DNA from: Candidatus Gastranaerophilales bacterium | GTDB lineage: Bacteria; Cyanobacteriota; Vampirovibrionia; Gastranaerophilales; Gastranaerophilaceae | Length of the DNA stretch: 45,871 bases | NCBI GenBank assembly: GCA_944324225.1 | Contig: CALUVL010000017.1 | Coordinates: forward strand, 1 to 45,871 | Direction: 5' to 3' | Made by a program: the position numbers and the translations under genes | In this document: piece by piece, positions 4,050 to 36,929 of the stretch | Layout of the letters: each line of letters opens with the position of its first letter | Numbering within the stretch: position 1 is the first letter of the stretch | Notes under the pieces: generated by a model | Told to the model about the DNA's origin: nothing | Database searches by the model: none | What the model saw: the letters and a program-made list of their open reading frames with translations, nothing else

Positions 4050-4421
4050 ATGAAAAACATTCTTATTGTTGATGATGAACAGGATATCGTAGAAAGTTTG
4101 AAATTTGTACTGGAAACAGCAGGTTACAACTGTTATACAGCTTTTGACGGCGAGGAAGGCTTAAGACTTGCTAAAAAAATAATGCCTGATTTAATAATAC
4201 TCGATGTTATGATGCCAAAAATTAACGGATATAAAATCAGCAGGCTTTTGAAATATGACAGCAAATATAAAAACATTCCTATCCTGATGATTACGGCTCG
4301 TTCTCAGGAAGAAGATAAGCTTATCGGAGAAGAAACAGGCGCCGACGAGTATATTACAAAACCCTTTGACCTTGATGATGTCTTAAAACAAGTCGAAAAA
4401 TATTTAGGTAAAGAAAATTAA
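4050..4421 (+). CDS. Single-domain response regulator (CheY/PilG type)
   Basis: A 123-residue stand-alone receiver domain with no output domain. The acidic pair is Asp8-Asp9, the phospho-acceptor is Asp52 (LILDVMMP), the switch Thr is Thr82 (MITAR) and the conserved Lys is Lys104 (TKPF). It should act by binding a partner after phosphorylation. GAGGA precedes the ATG. Its stop overlaps the start of the PilB-like gene by one base (TAATG), so the two are probably translationally coupled. That suggests it controls a pilus or secretion-like machine, as PilG/PilH do elsewhere. The histidine kinase at 1388 is a candidate phosphodonor. Confidence 0.92.
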   Translation: MKNILIVDDEQDIVESLKFVLETAGYNCYTAFDGEEGLRLAKKIMPDLIILDVMMPKINGYKISRLLKYDSKYKNIPILMITARSQEEDKLIGEETGADEYITKPFDLDDVLKQVEKYLGKEN

Positions 4422-5809
4422 TGGAAACCGTAACTAACAAAACACTTGAAAAATTAAAATATGACCTTGTAAGAGCAGGACTTATACAATATGAAACTCT
4501 TGAGCAAGCGCAGGAAATAGCAAATGCACAAAATATAAATATCGGTCAGGCGCTTATTAATTCAGGAATGCTGACGGAAGATGTACTTATCAAATTTCTT
4601 GAAACCAAACTTCACACTCCGTTTGTTAATCTGGAGGATTACAGTCTGGATCCGAAGTGTTTGAAATACATCAACTATACCGATGCAAAAAGATTTAAAA
4701 TTTTACCTTTATTTAAAATTGAAGATACTTTAACTGTTGCAATGGCCGATCCTCTTGATTTGTTTGCAATAGACAGAATAGTAGAATCCGCGGAATGCAC
4801 TATAGAGCCTGTTCTTGCTTCCGAATCAGTTATCCTGAAAAAAATTGATGAATATTACCCGAACGACACAATTGTAGGTGAGATCTATACATCTTCCCAA
4901 TCTGAAGGCTTCGACTGGAGAGATGAACTTCATAGCGAAGACTTGTCAGATTTACATATACAAAAAATCATACGTTCTATTCTTAAACAAGCTATCATTG
5001 AAGAAGTTCACGAAGTTCTTTTTCAAAGACAGGATGACGGATTAGGAGTAAATTTCAAAAAAAACGGAGATATTCTAAACAAAGGAACAATTCCATCTGT
5101 CCTTACACTGTCGTTTACAGCAAAGCTTAAGACTTTAGCTGATCTGGATCCTTCGGTAAGTGAAGTGCCACAGCTTGGGAAATTAAATTTTAAAGTGGAT
5201 GAGATAGCTCTTGTTGCAAGTGTTTCTACATTTCCGACTATTATGGGCGAGAGAATTTTTCTCAAAATTTACAAACCACCTAAAGCTTTAAATAAAATTA
5301 TTACAAATGACACTCAACTTAAAGTGGTAAAAAAAGCGCTTGATATCCCGGGAGTAATACTTGTTTGCGGTTCACCTCTCAGCGGAAAAACCCATGTTAT
5401 TTATTCACTGCTTATGGAATGTGCACAAAAGAACAGCAACAAAAATATTATGACACTAGAAAGTATTGCAAAATACAATCTTCCAAATATTAACCAGTGC
5501 GAATTGAATGAAAATATCGGCTTTAACATGGATAAAGCTTCAAGGTTTATTGAATTTCAGTCCCCTGATATTATCTATCTTGAAGGAATTAAAAACAAAG
5601 AATCTTTTGATTATTTTTCAAGTCTTGTTTACGACGACAAAACTGTTATTATGGAATTTCTTGCAAATAACATGGATGAATTACGTAACAAAATGGCAAT
5701 TTCTGATTTTGAAACGCTCAAATCAATTATCAGCTGCATAATTTTCATTCACTCCAAAAATAGCGTTGAAGTCTTTGATAAAACAACAGCACAAAAATAT
5801 CTGGCATAA
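4421..5809 (+). CDS. Degenerate PilB/GspE-family ATPase
   Basis: A 462-residue protein. Residues about 10-150 match the MshEN/GspE N-terminal domain (LIQYETLEQA, then IGQALINSGMLTE). Residues about 175-450 align with the hexameric secretion ATPase core. The Walker A-like loop is GSPLSGKT (317-324). The Asp box is eroded: TLESIAKY where TLEDPVEY is usual. The Walker B region reads DIIYLEGI (383-390) instead of DIILVGEI. The usual His-box segment (LSTLHTND) is replaced by MEFLANNMDE, and the four-Cys zinc site is absent. It may bind nucleotide but is unlikely to be a normal assembly motor. A regulatory pseudo-ATPase partnered with the response regulator is one possibility (inference). Confidence 0.85.
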   Translation: METVTNKTLEKLKYDLVRAGLIQYETLEQAQEIANAQNINIGQALINSGMLTEDVLIKFLETKLHTPFVNLEDYSLDPKCLKYINYTDAKRFKILPLFKIEDTLTVAMADPLDLFAIDRIVESAECTIEPVLASESVILKKIDEYYPNDTIVGEIYTSSQSEGFDWRDELHSEDLSDLHIQKIIRSILKQAIIEEVHEVLFQRQDDGLGVNFKKNGDILNKGTIPSVLTLSFTAKLKTLADLDPSVSEVPQLGKLNFKVDEIALVASVSTFPTIMGERIFLKIYKPPKALNKIITNDTQLKVVKKALDIPGVILVCGSPLSGKTHVIYSLLMECAQKNSNKNIMTLESIAKYNLPNINQCELNENIGFNMDKASRFIEFQSPDIIYLEGIKNKESFDYFSSLVYDDKTVIMEFLANNMDELRNKMAISDFETLKSIISCIIFIHSKNSVEVFDKTTAQKYLA

Positions 5810-5835: not shown

Positions 5836-6540
5836 CTAAAATCTTAGTGGATAATCTTTTGGAATTTTCCAGCCGTTATGTTGTATCAAAGCAGCACAGT
5901 ATGCTCTTTCATTGCTTACAATCTGCTGGCAACCTAATGAAGGATTATTTTTCAACATTTCAACTGTTCCGTCCCATCCATGCATATATGGCTCAACACC
6001 TTTTTTATAATGATATTTCGTTTCTTTAGCATAAGGAGCAAATAGAAACGTAAAATATTTTACTCCAGAAAGTTCCATGTTATTTTTTATTGCTCCACTT
6101 TCAGCATCAGTCTGATAATTCTCAAAAGTACCGGCATCCGGCCAAAATTGAAAACTTGCACCTCCTATTAACACCAGAGAACCATCAGGCATATAAACCA
6201 TTACCTTCCCAGTTTTGTCATTTATTTGAATATGAGAATATTTTATATATTTCTTCAAATAAATATCAAACCACTCAGAAGGCATAAGCTTGCCTTCTGA
6301 AGCTTCTTCAGAATCATAAGCATTACCCATAACATCCCAGTATTCTTTTGGTCCATGCTCCACTTCTGACATTGTTATGGCTGTATTTATAACAGAATAA
6401 AATCTGGCAAGTCTGGTTTCTGTAACAGTCTTTCTATAGTGTGACGTCAAATGCGGAATTGTCAATGCGGCAACCAATCCGATTATACCTATAGTTATCA
6501 AAACCTCTGCCATAGTAAAACCTTTATTTATTTTATTCAT
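5836..6540 (-). CDS. Type IV pilin-like (prepilin) protein
   Basis: A 234-residue prepilin-like protein. The leader MNKINKG is short and basic. Cleavage is expected after Gly7, leaving FTMAEVLITIGIIGLVAAL with the conserved Glu5 of the mature helix. The Tyr-Arg-Lys after the helix and a variable globular domain follow. The C-terminus ends NGWKIPKDYPLRF and resembles the tail of the pilin at 22714. AAGGAG lies 6 bases before the ATG. It is divergent from an XRE regulator gene with a perfect palindrome between them. The likely processing enzyme is the PilD homologue at 35940. Whether it is a pilus subunit, minor pilin or pseudopilin cannot be told from sequence. Confidence 0.9.
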   Translation of the reverse strand: MNKINKGFTMAEVLITIGIIGLVAALTIPHLTSHYRKTVTETRLARFYSVINTAITMSEVEHGPKEYWDVMGNAYDSEEASEGKLMPSEWFDIYLKKYIKYSHIQINDKTGKVMVYMPDGSLVLIGGASFQFWPDAGTFENYQTDAESGAIKNNMELSGVKYFTFLFAPYAKETKYHYKKGVEPYMHGWDGTVEMLKNNPSLGCQQIVSNERAYCAALIQHNGWKIPKDYPLRF

Positions 6541-22653: not shown

Positions 22654-22690
22654 AAAAAAGCGGTTTAGTAAATATCTAAACCGCTTTTTA
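22654..22690. terminator. Bidirectional hairpin terminator
   Basis: A perfect 14-bp stem (AAAAAGCGGTTTAG / CTAAACCGCTTTTT) with a 7-base loop. T tracts follow on both strands, so it can serve the small ORF on the plus strand and the pilin gene ending at 22714 on the minus strand. Confidence 0.92.
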
Positions 22691-22713: not shown

Positions 22714-23662
22714 TTACAATCTTACAGGATAATCATCAGGTATTTCCATTCCATTCTGGAAAATCAGCATTGTACAAAAGACGTCCTGACTTTGAAACTC
22801 ATAAGGATAAGTAGTTGAAGAAATGCAATACTCTTTCAGCTTATCTCTTGATAGTTCAGGATAATCGGGAACCATAAGATTCATACTGCTCACGTCATCC
22901 CATGAATGTCTTATTACCTTAAACTCAAACAAATCCTTCCCGGCTACCAGATTTTTATCTTTTACTACAGGATTGACTATTATGAACCAACTCAAAGTTG
23001 TATGATCCTTACCTTGCATTTGCTGTATATAACCAATCGTTACACCGTTTTTTAATGTTACTATATAAGCATGATGCAATTGCCAACAACCTTTTTTTTG
23101 TGCATTACATACTTTCATACGCCCTTCTTCCTTGTCAAAACGCCTTATAATATCAAAATGAGGGGCAAAATAATGTTCAAATACATCATGGCTAAGCTCC
23201 CAGGAATATCCGTTTACATCTGCTGTGCCATAGCTGCCAAAAATTTCATCCGGTACAAATGCCATTCCGTGTTCGGCCTGAACCATCTGCAGCGCTTGCG
23301 AAATCAGAGAATATGTAACTTTTAGTTTGTTTTGTGTAACAACTTTTCTGTAGTTGCCTAACAATGCAGGGAAAGTCATTGCAGCTACTATCCCGATAAT
23401 CCCGATTGTAATAAGCACTTCTGCCATTGTGAAGGCAGGTTGTTTTATTTCGACTTTCACTTCATTCTGATTGGGTTTACGACTGAAGGCTCCTTTCAAC
23501 TTTTCAAGGACTCCTCCGGCTAAAGCTTCCGGATGACCTGATACTTTTAATAAATCCTTTTTGATTAAATTGTTTTTTTCATTTAAGTCAGAAACTATTG
23601 CAGGAGCTTTATTTGCGGGTGCCCCCCCCCCCCCGAAATTCAATCATAGCAAGGTTTTTCAC
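22714..23662 (-). CDS. Prepilin-like protein with long N-terminal extension, frameshifted at a 13-G tract
   Basis: The best start is a GTG at 23662 with AAAGGAG 8 bases before it (reading VKNLAMIEFRGGG). The tract of 13 G at 23634-23622 puts this start out of frame, and it stops about 20 codons in. With 12 or 15 G it would read into the long frame. That frame continues for about 300 residues: a 60- to 70-residue Lys/Glu-rich leader, then FTMAEVLITIGIIGIVAAM with Ala at position -1, a YRK motif after the helix, and a tail NGMEIPDDYPVRL. As sequenced, the long frame is reachable only from a TTG at 23643 without a ribosome binding site. The leader is far longer than the usual 6-10 residues. It is 17 bases after the dehydrogenase gene at 23680 and probably in that operon. 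Confidence 0.8.
23622..23634 (-). repeat. Homopolymer tract of 13 G in a pilin 5' coding region
   Basis: Thirteen C on the plus strand (G on the coding strand) in an otherwise AT-rich gene, about nine codons after the GTG start. Tracts of this length slip during replication and are the classic basis of on/off phase variation. They are also error-prone in sequencing and assembly. Confidence 0.9.
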
Positions 23663-23679
23663 GACATTAACTCCTTTCA

Positions 23680-24723
23680 TTATTTATTCATCCATGGTTT
23701 TATCAAAAATTTAACGGCTCTTCCGGCGATATGTTCTTGCATTGCAAATTCCACATCTTTAAGTTCAAGAGTGTTCGTAATAAGTTTTTCCACCTCAACT
23801 TCGCCAGAGGCAATATATTCAAGCGCCTTGCGGAAATACTCGGGTGTATGATGAAAAACACTCATCAATCGGATATCGCCATAATGCATTTTTGTAGTAT
23901 CAAGCGTTACGGTAGAACCGGACTTACATCCACCGAAGAAGTGCACTGTTCCACCGGGACGCACACAGGAAAAAATTCTTTCCCAGATTTCAGGTAGTCC
24001 GACGCATTCGACAGCAACATCAAGCCCTTTATTTTCTTCCGTGAAACTCATAAATATTTTTTCAGGATTCGGATATTTTTTCAAATCAACTATTTCATCA
24101 GCGTGTGCGAACTCATCGGCAAGTTTCAGTTTTATCGGGTTACGGCCTGCGGCAATGACTTTAGCACCTTTTAACTTTGCAAGACGTGCAAACATAAGCC
24201 CGATAGGCCCAATACCAATAATACCAACAGTATCACCTTCCTTAATCCCTGTTCTTTCAACCCCGTGCACGACATTTGCAAGCGGTTCACAGAATGCCGC
24301 TTTGTCAAAACTCACATCATCAGGCAAAATAAGCGTATTTTTCTCAACAATACGAGCAGGTACCGTAATAAATTGTGCATACGCTCCGTTCAATAAGTCC
24401 AGATTTTCGCACAAATTATACTCTTTTCTCCGACAATAGAAACAATGCCCGCAGGGAGCCGAATTTGCACAAACAACTCTATCGCCAGGTTTAAATTTTG
24501 TAACTCCGTGCCCGACTCGGTCAACAATTCCGGCAAACTCATGCCCGAAACCTGACGGTATATTTTTAATCAACACCGGATGTCCGCGCCTGTAGGTTTT
24601 AACGTCCGTTCCACAGGTGAGCGCAGACATAATTTTTACGACAATTTCGCCTTCCTGCGGCGGTTTTACCATAACTTCTTCATATTTTATGTTTTGCGGG
24701 CCGTAATATTGTATTGATTTCAT
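23680..24723 (-). CDS. Zinc-dependent medium-chain dehydrogenase (polyol/threonine type)
   Basis: A 347-residue MDR-superfamily enzyme. The catalytic zinc ligands are Cys37 (TCGTD) and His61-Glu62 (GHEFAG). The structural zinc site is Cys91, 94, 97 and 105 (CGHCFYCRRKEYNLC). The Rossmann loop is IGIGPIGLMFARLA. The substrate is an alcohol or polyol, oxidised with NAD(P); it cannot be named from sequence. The start at 24723 (MKSIQYYG) follows AAAGGA. It lies 43 bases after the related gene at 24767 and 17 bases before the pilin-like gene, so these three are probably cotranscribed. Confidence 0.92.
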   Translation of the reverse strand: MKSIQYYGPQNIKYEEVMVKPPQEGEIVVKIMSALTCGTDVKTYRRGHPVLIKNIPSGFGHEFAGIVDRVGHGVTKFKPGDRVVCANSAPCGHCFYCRRKEYNLCENLDLLNGAYAQFITVPARIVEKNTLILPDDVSFDKAAFCEPLANVVHGVERTGIKEGDTVGIIGIGPIGLMFARLAKLKGAKVIAAGRNPIKLKLADEFAHADEIVDLKKYPNPEKIFMSFTEENKGLDVAVECVGLPEIWERIFSCVRPGGTVHFFGGCKSGSTVTLDTTKMHYGDIRLMSVFHHTPEYFRKALEYIASGEVEVEKLITNTLELKDVEFAMQEHIAGRAVKFLIKPWMNK

Positions 24724-24766
24724 TAGTTTTCCTTTGTGAGAGCCTGTTCGGTCGTGCACTTGCCAA

Positions 24767-25777
24767 TCAGCTTATTTTTATATAAGCTTTCAAAATTTTA
24801 TTTGAAATTGTATCTTTAAAAGCCTCATTTATTTTATCAAACTCATAGACCGTTGACAAATTTTTAACATTAACCCTGCCTGATTTCAAAAGTTCAAGGG
24901 ATTCTAACAAATCTGAAGGTGCCGGAGAATAACTTCCGAGTACAGTTAATTCTCTATAGTAAATCTCATTGTTAGGATAACCAAAATTTTTAGGAGTGCT
25001 TGCAAAAACCAAAATTTTTCCGCCGTTTCTGACCATCTTCAGGGCAAAATCAATGGCTTTGTCTGCACCAGATGTCATAAACACGGCATCAACCCCAAAC
25101 CCGCAGGTTTTATCAAAAATATATTTCTTTGTTTCTTCATAGTCTGACGAATTTATCGCATCAATTCCTAGATTTTTCAAAATTTCAACTCTTTCATCAA
25201 TCAGATCACAACCAGTAACCTTCATTCCGTGAGCCTTAAGAGCCTGTGCCATCAGAATTCCGATAGACCCAGCTCCGACAACAAGAACATTCGAGCCTTT
25301 TGTCAAATTTGCTCTATGCACAGCCCGCACGCAGCAACCAAGAGGTTCATAAAAAGAACCCTCAATTTCAGTAAGGTTTTCCGGCAAAAGATGGGCAACA
25401 TTTTTGAGATGTTCTTCAGACAAATAAACAAGTTCGCTAAAACCGCCAGGAAAAATATTAGTTTTCTTAAAATGAGCACACATTGAAACGTTTCCGGATT
25501 TACAAAAAACACATTCTCCGCAGGGAATATGATGAGAGGTTACAATTTTATCACCCTTTTTAAAATCGGTATCAGAATTAATTTCAATAATTTGAGCGAC
25601 AATTTCGTGCCCGAGTACAGTTCCGTTCGGAGAAATTTTTTCTCTGAATTTAACAATATCTGACCCGCACAGACCACAGCCCAAAACGTTTACAATTGCG
25701 CCTCTGCGCCCGTCTAACTGCAAATTTTTAAGTGATTTAAGGACAATATCCTCATTATTAATAACAGCTATTTTCAT
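24767..25777 (-). CDS. Zinc-dependent medium-chain dehydrogenase (second paralogue)
   Basis: A 336-residue MDR enzyme. Catalytic zinc ligands: Cys37 (GLCGSD) and His57-Glu58 (LGHEIV). Structural zinc: Cys86, 89, 92 and 100 (CGECVFCKSGNVSMC). NAD-binding VVGAGSIGILMAQALK. It is clearly homologous to the protein at 23680 but diverged, so the two probably act on different substrates or on successive steps of one pathway. GAGGG precedes the ATG. First gene of the probable operon. A divergent acetyltransferase gene starts 73 bases away. Confidence 0.92.
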   Translation of the reverse strand: MKIAVINNEDIVLKSLKNLQLDGRRGAIVNVLGCGLCGSDIVKFREKISPNGTVLGHEIVAQIIEINSDTDFKKGDKIVTSHHIPCGECVFCKSGNVSMCAHFKKTNIFPGGFSELVYLSEEHLKNVAHLLPENLTEIEGSFYEPLGCCVRAVHRANLTKGSNVLVVGAGSIGILMAQALKAHGMKVTGCDLIDERVEILKNLGIDAINSSDYEETKKYIFDKTCGFGVDAVFMTSGADKAIDFALKMVRNGGKILVFASTPKNFGYPNNEIYYRELTVLGSYSPAPSDLLESLELLKSGRVNVKNLSTVYEFDKINEAFKDTISNKILKAYIKIS

Positions 25778-35939: not shown

Positions 35940-36929
35940 ATGGAAATTTTAGTTCTTATCGTTACACTAACATTTATTGTAGGAACGATAATCGGGAGCT
36001 TTTTAAACGTTGTTGCATTAAGAGGTTTGGCAGGAGAATCAATTGTTCTGCCGCCTTCACATTGCACAAGCTGCGGCAACAAAATCAAACCCTGGCACAA
36101 TATCCCTATCTTGTCATATTTATTTTTAAGAGGGAAATGCGCATACTGTCAGGCTCCAATAAGCATTCAGTATCCGATTGTTGAATTTTTTACAGGGTTG
36201 GTTATGGTTGGATGTTTATTCAAATTTTATCCTACAATTACGGCATTATTTGCATTCATCTGCTGCTGCGGACTTATCGTAATGTCAATTACAGATTTGA
36301 AAGAAAAGGTTATATGCTCAGGGCATGTCTGGTTCCTGATTATTGCCGGAATTGTGTATAATATTTATCTCAGTATCAACCTGTTTAACGCACAAGCTGC
36401 AGAGTTCGGAAATTTTGAGATGAATTTTCATAATATTTTATCTCTTCCGATTACAAATTCACTAATTGGAATTTTAGCATCTGCACTGGTTATGGAATTG
36501 CTTGCAGGTGTCGGAAAAATAACAGTCGGAAACAGAGCTTTCGGACTTGGGGATACTTTTATTGCTGCAGCACTCGGCGCATTTTTCGGATTCAAAGCTT
36601 TCCTTATTATGCTTCTTTTAAGCATTGTGGTTCAAGTCGCCGTAGTTATCCCCGGATTTTTCAAAAAACTTGCAGGTAAAAAAGATTTTAATACAATGAT
36701 TTCACTTATTTTGTTCTTTGTTGCAGCTTCGGGATTTGCCTATGCTAATAACATTGGATTGATTGAAAATATGACTGTATGTCTTATAGCTTCTGCTATA
36801 CTTTTTGTAATCGGAATTTATGCCTGCTTCAGAGTTATTAAAGGAATGAAAGAAGACAGTGATTTAACAATTCTTCCGTTCGGACCGGCGATGGCTGTCG
36901 GTGCATTCCTCTGGATGTTTCTTTTATAA
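35940..36929 (+). CDS. pilD: Prepilin peptidase/N-methyltransferase
   Basis: A 329-residue A24 aspartic protease of the inner membrane, which cleaves prepilins after the basic leader and methylates the new N-terminus. The N-terminal methylase domain has the zinc Cys pairs Cys42/Cys45 and Cys67/Cys70. The catalytic Asp residues are Asp119 (SITDLKE) and Asp205 (FGLGDTF). About eight hydrophobic segments. Length is longer than typical (about 260-290), with an extra C-terminal hydrophobic part. Start ATG 3 bases after the sigma factor stop. It is the likely processing enzyme for the FTMAEVL proteins at 5836 and 22714. Confidence 0.95.
   Translation: MEILVLIVTLTFIVGTIIGSFLNVVALRGLAGESIVLPPSHCTSCGNKIKPWHNIPILSYLFLRGKCAYCQAPISIQYPIVEFFTGLVMVGCLFKFYPTITALFAFICCCGLIVMSITDLKEKVICSGHVWFLIIAGIVYNIYLSINLFNAQAAEFGNFEMNFHNILSLPITNSLIGILASALVMELLAGVGKITVGNRAFGLGDTFIAAALGAFFGFKAFLIMLLLSIVVQVAVVIPGFFKKLAGKKDFNTMISLILFFVAASGFAYANNIGLIENMTVCLIASAILFVIGIYACFRVIKGMKEDSDLTILPFGPAMAVGAFLWMFLL

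Follow-up and report, generated by a model that had tools for sequence, protein, structure and literature searches.

Phase variation based on poly-G tracts is best known from pathogens. In Campylobacter jejuni and Neisseria, several contingency genes per genome, devoted to surface structures, are switched in frame by poly-G tracts whose lengths and states are scattered. The methyltransferases of phasevarions are another class of genes known to be phase-variable.

The sortase-dependent pili of Bifidobacterium breve are the closest studied system to the genes considered here. In strain UCC2003, the pilus genes bbr_0113 and bbr_1889 are phase-variable through a G tract, which divides the gene of the first pilus subunit into two frames (PMC9187656). 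Most cells are OFF in culture, with one or two surplus G in the tract; they turn ON by base loss (ON corresponding to G10 and G9), ten-fold more often in mice (PMC9187656). A G repeat can also act at the RNA level, as in Helicobacter pylori, where a variable repeat in the mRNA leader of tlpB acts via the small RNA RepG (PMC8295292). In the literature searched, nothing was found on phase variation in the lineage examined below, nor was any prepilin family with a common leader tract.

The gene described here, which codes for a type IV prepilin-like protein, is probably phase-variable (a contingency gene) and switched by replication slippage in a G tract. This reading, drawn from sequence comparison, is favored by the existence of a whole family of such tracts, by differences in tract length among near-identical genes and by purifying selection on the frames concerned.

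The G Tract and the Frames on Either Side

The window, i.e., the whole 45,871-nucleotide stretch that was analyzed, is a single contig (C17) from a 1.93-Mb genome, 99% complete, of an uncultured gut bacterium that is a relative of cyanobacteria. On the minus strand, positions 23622-23634 form a run of 13 G (C13 on the plus strand), the presumed slippage site, inside the leader of a prepilin-like gene. Runs of at least nine G gave five overlapping matches in the window, all within this tract, where 100 shuffles gave 0.02 on average, the chance expectation for runs of at least that length. At G13, the homopolymer in the gene is of a slippage-prone length.

An earlier, sequence-only reading of this DNA had described a GTG start preceded by AAAGGAG and followed by 13 G, with an early stop in the frame as sequenced. 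This arrangement was confirmed on the minus strand: the GTG start codon of the leader occupies 23660-23662, the ribosome binding site (RBS) AAAGGAG lies 8 nt 5' of it (23671-23677), and the frame as sequenced (23609-23662) encodes a 17-residue peptide, VKNLAMIEFRGGGGTRK, ending with a TAA at 23611-23609, three codons past the tract. An alternative ATG (23678-23680, minus strand), which overlaps the stop codon of the upstream gene (TAATG), is in frame with the GTG, so that the conclusion about the frame is unaffected. The prepilin frame (22714-23643, minus strand) runs for 309 codons when counted from a TTG that has no RBS; as had also been stated, this TTG is its sole start as sequenced. By frame arithmetic, a tract of 12 G links the RBS-borne start to this frame, giving about 315 codons. 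The same reading had named 12 or 15 G as the lengths that open a complete prepilin-like frame, which holds for both and for 9 G as well, and a change in length toggles the gene between the 309-codon frame and truncation.

Past the tract, a GCTCCT (23602-23607, minus strand) that is conserved at a distance of 12-15 nt in the leader family could pair with the AGGAG of the RBS. On the 3' side of the prepilin gene, a perfect 14-bp inverted repeat, AAAAAGCGGTTTAG / CTAAACCGCTTTTT (22655-22689), is terminator-like. Directly upstream, on the same strand, lies a gene annotated as a zinc-binding alcohol dehydrogenase (23680-24759), the end of which also precedes the orthologous prepilin genes L100 and L101, together with a second annotated zinc-binding dehydrogenase (24767-25777, minus strand), likely of the same operon.

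The Predicted Prepilin and Its Assembly Machinery

The leader portion of the prepilin frame (23434-23643, minus strand) ends with QPA ahead of the predicted cleavage site. The mature pilin-like portion (22717-23433, minus strand) begins with FTMAEVLITIGIIG and comprises, according to a profile match and a structure model, an N_methyl motif followed by a variable domain. The gene thus displays a class III leader motif with its peptidase site, QPA^FTMAEVLITIGIIG, and a hydrophobic N-terminal helix, as in type IV prepilins. The NCBIfam profile TIGR02532 is matched above its cut-off (19.5 vs 16.3), and the Pfam N_methyl score is marginally under it (21.1 vs 21.2). In the structure model (mean pLDDT 71), a helix spanning residues 9-61 is followed by a beta-rich domain, for which a fold search against the PDB gave no match at E <= 0.001. 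Since about 70 residues of the frame precede the motif, compared with leaders of about 20-30 residues elsewhere in the family, the leader of the window gene is unusually long. Long leaders, namely those at 23434-23580 in the window and in L033, L010, and L139, contain recurring peptides (HPEALAEGS..., CHPE..., FFGLRPQND), which resemble in-frame dispersed repeats.

Genes for the processing and assembly of type IV prepilins are present in the genome. A prepilin peptidase gene, identified by matches to the A24_N_bact and Peptidase_A24 profiles, is located in the window at 35940-36929 (plus strand) and is the only gene for which the genome gave a Peptidase_A24 match. The genome also has four hits to T2SSE above cut-off, and a profile match identifies a MshEN/T2SSE ATPase at 4421-5809 in the window. 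A tractless prepilin-like gene (DUF6613) at 5836-6540 is adjacent to the latter and convergent with it.

A Family of Tract-Bearing Leaders

Nineteen tracts of at least 10 G can be found in the genome: 13 are located in prepilin leaders, two in leader copies at contig ends (identical leaders, cut there), and, among the remaining four, three in the middle of DNA methyltransferase genes. At least 12 sister genes of the window gene in the same genome harbor a tract in their leader. A prepilin query yields about 44 matches in this genome; in most of the tractless prepilins the leader is short, begins with ATG and is of the MKKAFTMAEV type.

Regarding the methyltransferases, three tandem N6/N4 DNA methyltransferase paralogues (L067, G000:C8:22000-26500) carry tracts of G12, G10, and G9 (C8:23279-23290, 24608-24617, and 25267-25275, minus strand), each with a half of PF01555 on both sides. 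The G10 copy is ON while the G9 and G12 copies are OFF, and the paralogues have differing upstream parts with nearly identical C-termini, so that, judged by sequence, the locus looks like a phase-variable methyltransferase array. On the same contig, a C5-cytosine methyltransferase (L068, G000:C8:29800-32800), both halves of which match PF00145, is broken by a G10 (C8:31311-31320) that puts it off by one.

The same leader with its tract is found across the genus (gut MAGs of Gastranaerophilales), four genomes of which were examined in detail, and this module is also abundant in Candidatus Gastranaerophilales and Melainabacteria MAGs. Within the order, 128 of 192 genomes contain tracts of at least 11 G, nearly all within one family, and in some relatives the number of long G tracts exceeds 100 per genome. 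A set of 191 tracts, the majority of them from this genus and the named MAGs, was collected, and in 140 of them a stop-free leader and a class III motif lie downstream.

Other tract arrangements were also encountered. In another group of prepilin leaders (MFNRDALRL-PPP-RNSI; L106, L125, L134, L136, L149, L183, L277, and L294), the coding strand carries C10-C13; these are mostly OFF, and some C-tract leaders hold the OFF state opposite to that of the G-tract genes. In G121, a repeated element (L347-L358) has the conserved flanks GAAACCCGCATGAATACTGAGTTTTGC-G11-TGCCAAACTCTAAGCCCCACAAGGCTTTC; its G side opens no prepilin frame, and prepilin genes lie nearby in L348, L355, and L358. In G177 (L359-L365), G11-G13 tracts with recurring flanks are found in or beside very long frames, possibly those of large surface proteins. 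The idea of a mobile palindromic element bounded by terminal inverted repeats was rejected, motifs on both sides being found for just one of 133 tracts of the genus, and the downstream AAGGGTTT, considered as a mobile-element motif, is accounted for by the end, KGF, of an ancestral leader. Likewise, the tract adjoining mutS in G012 (L233) and G011 (L278) is not that of a phase-variable mutS but belongs to the leader of a prepilin-type gene downstream.

Frame States and Selection

Among the 191 tracts, 136 are associated with both an RBS-supported start, the start codons having been picked by RBS score, and an open prepilin frame. In the genus, 114 of these 136 genes are one G too long, 12 are ON, and 10 need one G more, although these raw counts overstate independence because many tract genes share ancestry. 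The one-G-too-long predominance repeats within each genome, and of the dozen or so tract genes in the genome of the window nearly all have this single surplus G. Its share of 84% compares with 53% expected when tract lengths are permuted among genes, none of 20,000 permutations being as high; when only one gene per similarity cluster is kept, which corrects for kinship only in part, p = 0.00015. The genus thus displays a conserved out-of-frame arrangement at a slippery run, together with a conserved frame downstream. The commonest tract is G12 where it follows ...TTTCA, G13 where it follows ...TTTC, and G11 where three further bases come before it. As the modal length tracks the flanking bases, it is the frame and not the length that stays fixed, and a single mutational equilibrium for tract length is a misfit. 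Related gene pairs have the same state in 41 of 50 cases. In other genera the states are mixed (14 ON, 15 and 6 in the two OFF states), and the C-tract leaders of other lineages are mostly in the opposite OFF state. Such skewed states should not be expected from a freely hypermutable tract without selection on frame; the bias could stem from common descent with slow tract change, from resetting by ON cells at each transmission, or from direct selection on the frame.

The orthologues of the window gene follow the same pattern. The window gene and its orthologues from three other species (in G006, G009, and G011) are all one G too long, with tracts of G13, G12, an interrupted 12-mer (G5AG3AG2), and G11, and differences in tract length are compensated by flanking bases, leaving the state unchanged. 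The interrupted tract, in L100, retains the OFF frame. In a fourth orthologue, L103 (G001), the tract is gone and the gene starts from an ATG of its own; with this loss and the interruption in L100, the switch is not universal among orthologues of the window gene. The comparison of tract lengths across related genomes that the sequence-only reading had proposed therefore revealed the variation in length, but with a single state and with one orthologue lacking a tract. Differences in both length and state can be found within near-identical pairs, i.e., L107 (G13, OFF) vs L181 (G12, ON) and L158 (G12, OFF) vs L274 (G11, ON), and the L340/L341 paralogues, three in G182, have G12, G10, and G11.

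The out-of-frame genes bear the marks of purifying selection. For the window gene, dN/dS is 0.20 against L101 and 0.12 against L102 (dS being saturated for the latter); it ranges from 0.12 to 0.25 among the window gene and its three same-state orthologues where dS is estimable, and from 0.13 to 0.44 for other pairs of OFF genes. Values this far below 1 indicate that the frames are in use. Upstream of the tract, no RBS-bearing start in the prepilin frame was found in any OFF gene, and 24 of the 96 non-redundant one-G-too-long genes have no ATG, GTG, or TTG whatsoever in that frame. An alternative start within the prepilin frame was consequently ruled out for the family, the TTG of the window gene, in ATTGAATTT, not being conserved. 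Since these frames are under selection yet have no RBS-bearing start ahead of the tract, a change of frame has to occur at the tract, whether in DNA, in RNA or on the ribosome.

Replication Slippage as the Probable Explanation, and Its Alternatives

If the change of frame takes place in DNA, replication slippage in the tract would alter its length by one G or more. With 13 G, as assembled, translation would end three codons past the tract, while with 12 G (or 9 or 15) the RBS-borne start would be in frame and a full prepilin would be produced, which the prepilin peptidase would then cleave before its incorporation into a pilus or pseudopilus. Slippage in living cells, the control of expression it would exert and the surface display of the product are inferred from these sequences. 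As 13 prepilin genes of the genome have the same type of leader and tract, the set of surface pilins made would vary from cell to cell and over time. The proposal of a phase-variable prepilin already made by the sequence-only reading gains from the sister tracts, from the near-identical genes of differing length and from the methyltransferase tracts. The assimilation to textbook on/off switching fares less evenly: the tract family and the length differences agree with it, but textbook slippage does not predict that 84% of the genes are exactly one G too long, and the very uneven states in the genus (114, 12, and 10) speak against a DNA switch. Mismatch-repair loss was rejected as a driver, MutS1 being present in all 14 genomes checked, and no mutator background is therefore indicated.

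The uneven states are what the principal alternative addresses, namely that slippage is programmed at the level of expression, RNA polymerase omitting one G in a fraction of the transcripts or the ribosome making a +1 shift on tandem GGG codons. Every cell would then make a small steady amount of pilin, with the 17-residue peptide as the bulk product. For a pure DNA switch the two OFF states are equivalent, yet they are occupied by 114 and 10 genes; the state is shared by most genes and kept at G11, G12, and G13 through the flanking bases; a zero-frame stop lies within three codons past the tract in at least 80 of the 96 non-redundant genes; and the window gene and its three orthologues keep one state with differing tracts and low dN/dS. 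On the other hand, some genes are ON and a few are in the opposite OFF state, other genera are mixed and the C-tract leaders of other lineages mostly take the opposite OFF state, L100 holds the frame despite its interrupted tract, the GGG codon, at 10 per 1000 codons, is not particularly rare, and common descent of one leader module could by itself fix the frame. A sufD-like tRNA-Gly suppressor was rejected, the TCC, CCC, and GCC tRNA-Gly all having normal 7-base anticodon loops. Programmed slippage is thus unlikely, but it retains appreciable weight because it alone predicts the asymmetry of the OFF states directly. The same doubtful standing applies to its fuller form, in which dozens of prepilin genes would be maintained in the genus with one G too many and their products obtained via RNA polymerase slippage or a +1 ribosomal shift on a 12-G run, with DNA slippage adding rare, fully ON cells.

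Control at the RNA level is far less probable. The tract and the GCTCCT would here be a target or lock, through pairing with the RBS or with a C-rich small RNA, the frame being secondary, for which RepG offers a precedent (PMC8295292). GCTCCT is present 12-15 nt past the tract in 73 of 116 genes, in all three frames, vs one of 116 for a control stretch; an AGGAGUU-GCUCCU pairing is predicted in the window, and native complementarity reaches 15.3 vs 14.4 (sd 0.2) for permuted pairs. However, this effect is gone among sequences without CTCCT (p = 0.32) and the folding energy is no lower than that of shuffles, so that shared descent of the leader explains the pairing equally well. Base pairing between RBS and GCTCCT, though suggestive overall, is hence unsupported once the CTCCT sequences are removed, and the frame constraint would be left unexplained.

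It is just as improbable that the genes are locked-off remnants, dead or dying and maintained by recent duplication. Some are indeed broken by stops between tract and motif (L036, L080, L180, L220, L229, L230, and L240), and the tract of L100 is interrupted and in the OFF frame, but most of the ORFs are full length, the dN/dS of OFF genes is well below 1, and the class III motif follows a stop-free leader in 140 of the 191 tracts. Least probable of all is an assembly or sequencing error hiding a true tract of 12 G in a gene that is simply ON, which the sequence-only reading had considered the main alternative: G homopolymers are difficult, as documented for Illumina reads in the B. breve study (PMC9187656), but random error cannot explain that 13 of 19 tracts fall in one gene class and, being blind to frame, it would not put G11-G13 tracts off by the same base in genomes from different projects.

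Significance and Comparison With Known Systems

With phase variation by replication slippage as the preferred reading, poly-G phase variation would here constitute a genome-wide prepilin system in commensals of an uncultured lineage with kinship to cyanobacteria. The one-G-too-long resting state may reflect selection for a fast passage to ON by base loss, as the B. breve numbers suggest, or expression through slippage. Were programmed slippage true, the whole pilin repertoire would be expressed at a low, noisy or regulated level from fixed DNA.

Like the B. breve genes, those of the window family belong to a gut commensal, have their frame split in two by a G tract and are mostly OFF by excess G. 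Unlike them, they encode type IV prepilins of a Melainabacteria lineage, with loci numbering from a dozen up to several dozen per genome, whereas the Gram-positive B. breve has sortase-dependent pili at two loci; slippage was measured in B. breve and is inferred in Gastranaerophilales. The variable G repeat of RepG/tlpB is likewise in a message leader, but here the repeat lies within a coding leader and sets the frame. With regard to phasevarion methyltransferases, their counterpart in this genome is the tandem trio with G9, G10, and G12 together with the G10-bearing C5 methyltransferase, a gene class separate from the prepilins. As in Campylobacter jejuni and Neisseria, long G/C homopolymers are located in genes for surface structures, here putative ones; in contrast to those organisms, a single OFF state dominates the genus.
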